Made by a program: the position numbers and the translations under genes. Under the pieces are notes generated by a model. It ran no database searches. It was not told the origin of the DNA and saw only the letters and a list, made by a program, of their open reading frames with translations. A stretch of DNA of 64,000 nt from Coleofasciculus sp. FACHB-T130 (GTDB lineage Bacteria > Cyanobacteriota > Cyanobacteriia > Cyanobacteriales > FACHB-T130): contig NZ_JACJOG010000041.1 in NCBI RefSeq assembly GCF_014695375.1, forward strand, positions 1 through 64,000, in the 5' to 3' direction. Shown one piece after another: positions 45,146 to 48,065 of this stretch; positions within the stretch are counted from its first letter, which is position 1, and every line of letters starts with the position of its first letter.

Positions 45146-45684
45146 GGGTAGTTCTCCAACTGCTAATTTTTTCTAGTTTTGTCAGCCAAGCTCAACAAGT
45201 AACTAAAACTACGCAAATATGCTTAGTTTTAACGGTGATTGACAATGACTGTGTACTGTACGGAGGAACTATCACTACGGTTTTCGGTCAGAGTCTATCT
45301 TTACAAATTCTTTAATTAGCAGCCTCTTTTCTCTCAAAAGATGAAGTTTTGATGAAGTTTTGCTGAAATGCTTGTTTAAACTACGCATTGTAAAACTACG
45401 GAAAGCAGAAACTTTCAGTTTGTGTTTCAAGGCAGTGTGGAAGTATAGCAACAGCCAGGGCGGTTAGGACGCTAAGTATAGAACATACTCCATAGCATCG
45501 CGTAGACAAACAAACTGGTCGAGTTGTTTGCGAATTCAACTTTTGAGCCAAGACTTGAGCCAAGGATTTGCGTTAAAACACTTCTTTGTTGATTCCGTAA
45601 GAGTTGACGCTTTAGAGAGTGTTCCACTACGAAATTTTCGATGTAACGCTTGAAGGTTTTTAATTGAGGCGGTGCTTTTTTAGT
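45146..45684. other. 539-bp intergenic region
   Basis: Upstream of the PEP-CTERM gene and downstream of the DUF488 gene. Several short direct repeats such as GATGAAGTTTTG (around 45340-45362) are seen. No coding frame or RNA gene can be supported. Confidence 0.4.
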
Positions 45685-46131
45685 TTACTTCAAATGTTTA
45701 ATTGGAACATCAACAAGCTTCTGTAGTTCGCAAGCAACATCTACTCTATGACATTTAGATGAGTCCATCTCAGCACACAATAGTAAAATCGTGCCGACTT
45801 CAGCAAGCTTTGAAATTTCTATTAGTGTTTCACGCGCTTTATCATAATCAGGAGGAATCCAGTTACTTTTACCAGATGTATTACCTAGAGATTCTTTTGA
45901 TAAATACTTAATTTTTTTATAACTACAAATTTTTTCTATCTGCTCTTTGTACCATTGACGACTCCAAGCACGAGGGCTTAATCTAACGTCTATTACACAA
46001 GTGACATTAAATTCATGTAAGTAATCTAAAAAAACTTCGTGGTTTGTTCTATTTCCATAACCAAAAGTCAGGATGAGTCTATCCATATTAGAAATAGTTT
46101 TAGAATCATCTTCTGTAGCAATAATAGCCAT
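45685..46131 (-). CDS. DUF488 family protein
   Basis: A 148-residue protein of the DUF488 family. Its hallmarks are LTFGYGNRTNHEVFLDYLHE and VTCVIDVRLSPRAWSRQWYK at the start and LLLCAEMDSSKCHRVDVACE near the end, where the Cys-Ala-Glu and Cys-His are conserved. The family is of unknown biochemistry, often next to helicases or restriction genes. ATG at 46131 is used; an internal ATG at 46086 (MDRLILTFGYGN) would also begin near the domain. It lies 6 bp downstream of a gene with an in-frame UGA, so the two form an operon. Confidence 0.8.
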   Translation of the reverse strand: MAIIATEDDSKTISNMDRLILTFGYGNRTNHEVFLDYLHEFNVTCVIDVRLSPRAWSRQWYKEQIEKICSYKKIKYLSKESLGNTSGKSNWIPPDYDKARETLIEISKLAEVGTILLLCAEMDSSKCHRVDVACELQKLVDVPIKHLK

Positions 46132-46137
46132 TTTTAT

Positions 46138-46953
46138 TCAGAAAAAACTGAGCTGTTCATATTTTACTATAGGTGGGTACACTAAACCAATAATCATAAA
46201 ATTCTGGGGATGGCTTTTTAAATTCCCAACAATAAAATAAAGCTCTTTATCATACATAAAGCTGCTTTCGAGTTTTTGCCTAACTTTCTCCAATGCTTCA
46301 TTCTCCTTAGAGTATAAATCAGCTAATTTTGAGCGTTCTCAACAATTTCTGTACAACTGCATGATTTCCCAGTCGGTGATTGTATATTTGTGTTTAACGT
46401 CATCATTATCTGTAAATTCATATCCAAACTTATAAGGAATTTTCTCTAATGTTGACAATGGATTGCTTGGTTCTAGTAAATCGAGCAACTCGAGCTGATC
46501 CTGCACGGCTTGCTGCTTATCGCTCCATTCACGTTCTACTGGCTTGCAAAAATATTTACTTATATTTTTAGGCTTAATTAAACCTAGAGTTTTATTTTGT
46601 TTTTTAATACTATTGATGGAATCAAACTGAAAAGGGAAAATGAAAGATTTTATTTTTCCCCAATTATTCTCCGTCCCGACTTTTCTAAGGACACTTATAG
46701 AATCATCATCTATCCTATAACTTTCAGGTCTAGCATCCTTATCATTTTTTTCTATTCGAGCGCTGATAATACTCCATCTAGGAAATTTTTTATCGAATTC
46801 TAGCTCGCGGAAACGAATAGGATAAATGCGAATCCAACTTTTAGGATTTTCGTCGTCATCCAATAAGATTCCAGCCGTACAAACAGTTTCTTTGTATTTG
46901 GTGCTTATTGAAGGATAAGTCTTTGTTGCAATTAGTATTTTATTTCTTTCCAT
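46138..46953 (-). pseudogene. Dual-domain unknown protein broken by an in-frame UGA
   Basis: The frame runs from ATG 46953 for 204 codons (MERNKILIATKTYPSISTKY...), meets a TGA at about 46339-46341 (Asn-Cys-stop), then continues in the same frame for 66 more codons: ERSKLADLYSKENEALEKV to YFIVGNLKSHPQNFMIIGLV and YPP, to a real stop at 46138. The part after the TGA reads as the normal C-terminal domain (an LYF(F/I)VG ... IIG(L/V)-x-YPP block), as in full-length relatives paired with DUF488, as far as I recall. So this is either a recent nonsense mutation (TGG to TGA is possible) or a readthrough gene. The N-terminal part has SWIRIYPIRFRELEF. Function unknown. Confidence 0.7.
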
Positions 46954-47151
46954 ATAAGTTAACCTTCTTTAAATTCAAGGTGGCTTGGCGGTGCAAAGGG
47001 GAAAAGTTGGTTATAGGCTAGGCTACAAGGCCTGCTAGTGATTGTTGGCGCACGGGATCTCTGCCAAACCGTGAAATTTTCGATGCAAAAGAGCGATCGC
47101 GTTGCGCCGAAGAAGTCCGTTCGCTTTTGCTGGAACCATCGCCCCACTCGC

Positions 47152-47619
47152 TCAAAGCTGTTGAGATATTCTATGCGCTGTCGTAGAAGGGTCTTTTGGC
47201 GCAGGCGACTCTAGCTCAAACCCGTGCTTTTTGTACCAGTTGATAAGACCTGGAGTGGTGGCGATATCTTTGTGAGTCAAGCAACCGTAGATGTGTGTCA
47301 TCCCCTTCTGGCGAGCGAAGTCAAGCGCAAACTTCAGAAGGTAAGTGCCTAGTCCTTTGTTGCGGTAGTTTCTAGGTTTGAGTTTAAATACTTTCCGCCA
47401 CCTTGGGATCTCTACGACATCATCATCATCATTGGAGATAATCAAGTCGCTTATTTTCATTTCTCCTGGTGGATCGACGACGCATTGAAGCCGACCAACT
47501 TCATTATTTTGATATTGCAGCTTGACGACAAGAAGCCCGGATTCATCGTCATAATCGCCTTTCATCTGGTACCGGCGACCTTGCTTATCTCCAACTAATT
47601 GCTCTATCTCCTGAGTCAT
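47152..47619 (-). CDS. GNAT family N-acetyltransferase
   Basis: A 155-residue protein with a GNAT-like core: FKLKPRNYRNKGLGTYLLKF is the acetyl-CoA-binding loop (R/N-x-x-G-x-G-x), and ARQKGMTHIYGCLT and LINWYKKHGFELES form the last strand and helix. It acetylates an unknown amine. The N-terminal half (QGRRYQMKGDYDDESGLLVV) is less typical and may be a small extra domain. It is monocistronic, with a run of short, broken frames on both sides. Confidence 0.75.
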   Translation of the reverse strand: MTQEIEQLVGDKQGRRYQMKGDYDDESGLLVVKLQYQNNEVGRLQCVVDPPGEMKISDLIISNDDDDVVEIPRWRKVFKLKPRNYRNKGLGTYLLKFALDFARQKGMTHIYGCLTHKDIATTPGLINWYKKHGFELESPAPKDPSTTAHRISQQL

Positions 47620-47993: not shown

Positions 47994-48065
47994 AGCTGGT
48001 GACAAGATTTGAACTTGCGACCGGCTGATTACAAATCAGCTGCTCTACCCCTGAGCTACACCAGC
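47994..48065 (-). tRNA. trnT: tRNA-Thr (anticodon UGU)
   Basis: On the minus strand the sequence folds into a full cloverleaf: acceptor arm GCTGGTG / CACCAGC, D-arm GCTC-AGGGGTA-GAGC, anticodon stem GCTGA / TCAGC with loop TTTGTAA (anticodon TGT) and a T-arm with TTCAAAT. CCA is not encoded. It reads threonine ACA-type codons. Confidence 0.95.

Follow-up and report, generated by a model that had tools for sequence, protein, structure and literature searches.

Organisation of the locus

The locus lies on the minus strand of the window (the whole stretch of 64,000 nucleotides analysed) and comprises a PDC-M19B-like gene (M19B) interrupted by an in-frame TGA, followed by an intact DUF488 gene. 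M19B starts with an ATG at 46953 and has 204 sense codons (46342-46953), the TGA as codon 205 (46339-46341), 66 further sense codons (46141-46338) and a normal stop, which also is TGA (46138-46140); with the TGA codon counted as sense the full frame corresponds to 271 residues. A spacer of 6 bp (46137-46132) separates the normal stop from the ATG at 46131 of the DUF488 gene (45685-46131, 148 amino acids), for which no obvious ribosome-binding site was seen by eye. The coordinates agree with the first-pass annotation, which had placed the TGA after codon 204, with 66 more codons and 6 bp to DUF488.

The pair is AT-rich, with a GC content of 0.32-0.37 (500-base windows, 45500-46999) compared to 0.43-0.51 further out, and it occurs once in the draft assembly (60 contigs, 6.21 Mb). 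Scanning the locus for promoters and terminators gave fewer sites than in shuffled sequences. The segment 45441-47936, which also holds a GNAT acetyltransferase gene (47152-47619) and ends near a tRNA-Thr gene (47994-48065), has no long match in a same-genus genome (G001), and its flanks fall on two contigs of that genome, so that no empty site can be demonstrated.

The frame downstream of the TGA

With the TGA read as Arg, the M19B protein matches positions 1-266 of the 269 in the PADLOC profile for PDC-M19B (PDLC04508; E 3.5e-70). The first 204 codons alone match positions 1-205 (E 3.2e-58) and the 66 downstream codons alone match positions 209-267 (E 6.4e-9), and since the latter match the end of the profile whose first part is matched by the former, the 66 codons belong to the M19B gene. 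Whole homologues read on through the position of the stop, and distant ones (Planctomycetota, Coriobacteriia and Actinomycetes; approximately 31% identity) can be aligned as far as residue 261 or 262 of the 271. The conserved C-terminal domain proposed from the initial inspection is consequently borne out, and the homologues, which would have spoken against it had they ended at the TGA, continue past the site.

Homologues of M19B were detected in four of 60 related genomes and in 17 of 386 genomes in a sample of the phylum (own genome included in both), at nine loci in a contig search of genomes, and in 24 plasmid records and one viral contig. A distant PDC-M19B relative (29% identity) is present next to a tyrosine recombinase on the archaeal conjugative plasmid pSOG2 of Sulfolobus islandicus (L137).

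Codon 205 in homologous loci

Among 23 homologous loci examined at the site, 18 show more than 50% identity and cover it, and in all 18 the counterpart of codon 205 is Arg. It is encoded by all six codons (CGA, CGC, CGG, CGT, AGA and AGG); at this position the amino acid is conserved and the codon is not. The other five loci have Val (L025), a gap (L028 and L029) or Arg (L030), these four at 29-36% identity, while L027 does not cover the site. Neither Trp nor Cys is found at the position, and none of the 18 close homologues carries UGA. The suggestion that UGA may replace Trp hence finds no counterpart in the family, and the proposed comparison of homologues, in which a Trp codon was to favour mutation and a conserved UGA recoding, gave neither of the two.

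The ratio of dN in the C-terminal part to that in the N-terminal part is 1.16-1.59 in six pairs that include the window gene vs 1.02-2.10 in 15 pairs of intact homologues, which gives no indication that constraint is relaxed beyond the TGA. Since the C-terminal part carries no extra decay, the mutation would be recent or the TGA a sequencing error; synonymous sites are largely saturated and the change can therefore not be dated. No second genome of the species was found in the collections searched.

Relation to PDC-M19 and predicted fold of M19B

All 11 members of the M19B alignment match PDC-M19B (best E 1.5e-83), and Pfam and NCBIfam gave nothing significant for the protein or the family. 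The DUF488 protein scores over the cut-off for Pfam DUF488 (PF04343; E 4.9e-15) and its best PADLOC match is PDC-M19A (PDLC04505; E 1.4e-12), of which it covers just positions 145-293 of 294; PDC-M45B comes second (E 7.7e-10). As in PDC-M19 and in close homologues, the two genes are adjacent in the order M19B-DUF488, with a full-length M19B profile match and the M19A-like gene 6 bp downstream; the locus departs from PDC-M19 in that the M19B frame is not intact but has the TGA at codon 205. From these matches the pair would represent an uncharacterised candidate anti-phage module, as PADLOC lists it. PDC systems are described as unpublished candidate systems (PMC11811056), and for two others, PDC-M63AB and PDC-S04, another study reports tests with no evidence of defence activity (PMC12409345). 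A full-text literature search returned no paper on PDC-M19.

Searches of solved structures by sequence gave none for the M19B family and two chance-level matches for DUF488 (E 0.88). One weak match, with a type IIG restriction enzyme as the target (E 0.0037), was taken as due to chance. The AlphaFold model of M19B (mean pLDDT 85.3, pTM 0.84) has two OB-like beta-barrels. Foldseek gave a best E of 9.8e-5, but TM-scores of only ~0.2-0.3 in the top rows; VIA Z scores were 6.6 for LEF-3, 5.5-5.9 for RPA70 and ~5-5.5 for HIN domains, which is within the range of common arrangements. At these modest scores the model resembles paired-OB-fold proteins, and the modelled fold by itself would suggest a possible nucleic-acid-binding role. 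The two modelled barrels would be in keeping with Pfam DuOB (PF22557); two of the 11 family members match it at noise level (best E 0.04), the window protein does not, and the unrelated families KptA_kDCL (0.0097) and vATP-synt_E (0.058) match as well or better.

In the model the TGA falls within a helix (residues 195-207), and truncation at this point would remove the helix at 213-229 together with the strands 239-245 and 248-258 of the second barrel.

Search for UGA recoding in the genome

The first reading of the sequence had also allowed for readthrough or a selenocysteine-type site. UGA or Cys would be expected to be conserved at a selenoprotein site, where the family has Arg, and the genome would be expected to encode the selenocysteine machinery. 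SelA gave no match in the genome (0/1), while the control search was positive in E. coli. A tRNA-Sec model gave 12 matches, none above the cut-off, the best of them being a tRNA-Ser(gct) according to ARAGORN. With a general tRNA model 71 matches were obtained (150 of 360 candidates scored, i.e. not exhaustive), and ARAGORN saw no UCA anticodon on the 47 loci holding such matches; one weak match (C46:80529-80598) received no ARAGORN call. Besides the dispersed set, 36 tRNA genes are arrayed within approximately 5 kb of the genome (C46:57584-62601), reminiscent of the long 26-gene trn operon described for Anabaena PCC 7120 (PMC10272220). The RNA around the stop is predicted to fold no better than shuffled sequences (z -0.39). 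These results leave little room for a readthrough or Sec-type site.

We also examined in-frame interruptions on the contig (236,552 of the 6,211,392 bases of the genome). The first scan, based on codon usage, gave zero candidates because the first part of M19B itself scores near zero. On the contig, open segments adjoin one another in frame in 117 pairs, 20 of which show little overlap with other frames; the stops separating these are TAA in nine cases, TGA in seven and TAG in four, and three of the 20 come from the M19 locus (the premature TGA and two normal gene ends). For comparison, 102 long frames end normally in TAA (53), TAG (29) and TGA (20). TGA is thus somewhat more common among the 20 interruptions, but it is not clearly over-represented, and recoding cannot be read from so small a set in which most cases are unverified as broken genes. 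Of five in-frame pairs searched against Pfam, two seem to be adjacent genes that share a frame (methyltransferase and cupin; ArgZ-like and DUF2887), one is a Uma2 gene and two were unmatched. Genome-wide recoding of UGA was rejected as unsupported on this one contig.

A second interrupted gene and comparison with a same-genus genome

The Uma2 gene (C41:206220-206702, minus strand), which is present on the same contig, is likewise split by an in-frame TGA. In G001 an intact Uma2 gene (94% identity) has an Arg codon at the TGA position; elsewhere the residue is Gly (G002 and G005) or Ser, Leu, Thr, Thr, Leu, Leu, Phe and Ala in eight more loci. The position of this stop is therefore not conserved, Arg being found in G001 alone. 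The genome has 45 Uma2 matches, one with an internal TGA and one with an internal TAG. As an example of nonsense-interrupted cyanobacterial accessory genes, Uma2 resembles M19B in having a single TGA at a relative's Arg codon and an otherwise intact frame. It differs in belonging to another family, in that the Arg copy comes from one same-genus genome, and in that the position varies further away.

The two stops share a 9-mer, TGTTGAGAA, on one contig, which is a little odd. We compared the contig with contig C6 of G001 (13 blocks with 73,282 aligned columns, all outside the M19 locus) with respect to C/T asymmetry, limiting the comparison to sites flanked on either side by two matching bases. 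C in G001 and T in the present genome was observed at 1129 sites vs 1148 for the reverse; for the TCG context the numbers were 104 vs 106 and for GTCGA 8 vs 6, the last being few cases. A base-calling or methylation artefact at TGTTGAGAA was on this basis rejected, with no asymmetry, few cases and an M19 region without counterpart. Among comparable open frames, 56 each way, an in-frame stop was found in five for the present genome and in three for G001. Well inside the frame there is one stop each way (Uma2 and, in reverse, an unverified frame of 123 codons), both at an Arg codon, while the others lie within the first 26 or the last 10 residues. Such nonsense changes are ordinary here.

M19B in other genomes and plasmids

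In the phylum sample, three genomes of one genus have an open DUF488 next to an incomplete M19B, which lacks about the first 70 residues in G288, keeps residues 1-165 in G295 and keeps about the first 22 residues in G194; in G333 and G311 M19B ends ~10 residues early. The three broken copies in the one genus (loci L026, L027 and L032) represent 5' loss, C-terminal loss and near-complete internal loss. The plasmid copies in Calothrix and Fischerella are whole, and the gene downstream of them is similar in size to DUF488; a Gloeocapsa plasmid has residues 1-90 of M19B and no DUF488 listed nearby in its incomplete gene table.

Of 12 phylum loci picked by their DUF488 (at least 45% identity), four have a broken M19B (the window, G288, G295 and G194) and none a broken DUF488. 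Perhaps M19B is prone to repeated loss with retention of DUF488, in which case DUF488, without a whole M19B, may act alone or protect from its partner. We consider this doubtful and treat it as a hint only, because the loci were chosen by DUF488, because the chance of all four breaks falling in M19B is ~0.18 when weighted by length (271 vs 148 residues; calculated by hand, and more if three of them are non-independent), and because of the Gloeocapsa plasmid without a listed DUF488.

Origin of the interruption and its possible consequences

M19B differs at codon 205 from its relatives, and from this difference we infer a mutation event and its direction. A recent point mutation from Arg to stop, which turned M19B into a young pseudogene, is probably the correct explanation; the weights given here to mutation, sequencing error, split gene and recoding are our own judgement. 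As expected for a recent pseudogene, homologues are intact at the site and the downstream frame is kept. An untouched C-terminal part is also expected from readthrough, and an intact and conserved downstream frame would fit a UGA that is read through or recoded (as Sec, Trp or Arg, or through regulated leakiness) to give a protein of 271 residues, as would the small difference in TGA use between the in-frame interruptions (7/20) and the normal stops (20/102). Against this, the 20 interruptions include the two normal gene ends of the M19 locus and the pairs of neighbouring genes, UGA occurs at the site in none of the 18 close homologues, and neither Sec machinery nor, among the tRNA candidates scored, a UCA anticodon nor a stable RNA structure at the stop was seen; we regard recoding as very improbable. 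Hardly more credible is a split gene, in which a second start after the TGA yields a C-terminal piece and the halves cooperate. By eye, AAGGAG is located 9 nt ahead of an in-frame TTG from which the last 51 codons could be read, but AAGGAG corresponds to Lys and Glu codons of the M19B family, the TTG position is variable among six close, unsplit relatives (Met, Ile, Ile, Thr, Leu and Leu), and a break within a modelled helix would be a poor place for a split. Both readings are thus unlikely.

Sequencing or assembly error, with a gene that is whole in the living cell, is a more serious candidate, though still an improbable one. The lack of any trace of decay after the TGA and the draft state of the assembly are in keeping with it, but the comparison with the same-genus genome, which covers columns outside the M19 locus, revealed no general or context-specific C/T asymmetry, and with in-frame stops occurring in both directions the assembly is not visibly error-rich. 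Thus, among the three options first considered, recent nonsense mutation is the best supported, sequencing error is less likely and readthrough or Sec is unsupported.

If a recent nonsense change did convert the Arg codon of M19B to TGA, translation would halt at codon 205 to give a product of 204 residues, which, missing one helix and the final beta-hairpin of the second barrel, would most likely be non-functional. The premature stop would also widen the gap to DUF488 from 6 bp to 207 nt, and since DUF488 has no obvious ribosome-binding site its coupled translation may drop as well.

Together, our data assign a gene without significant Pfam or NCBIfam match to PDC-M19B, with a likely fold, and show that in this candidate defence gene the stop takes the place of an Arg codon; that it serves as a recoding site is very unlikely. 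The locus would as such represent a further case of accessory modules decaying in place.
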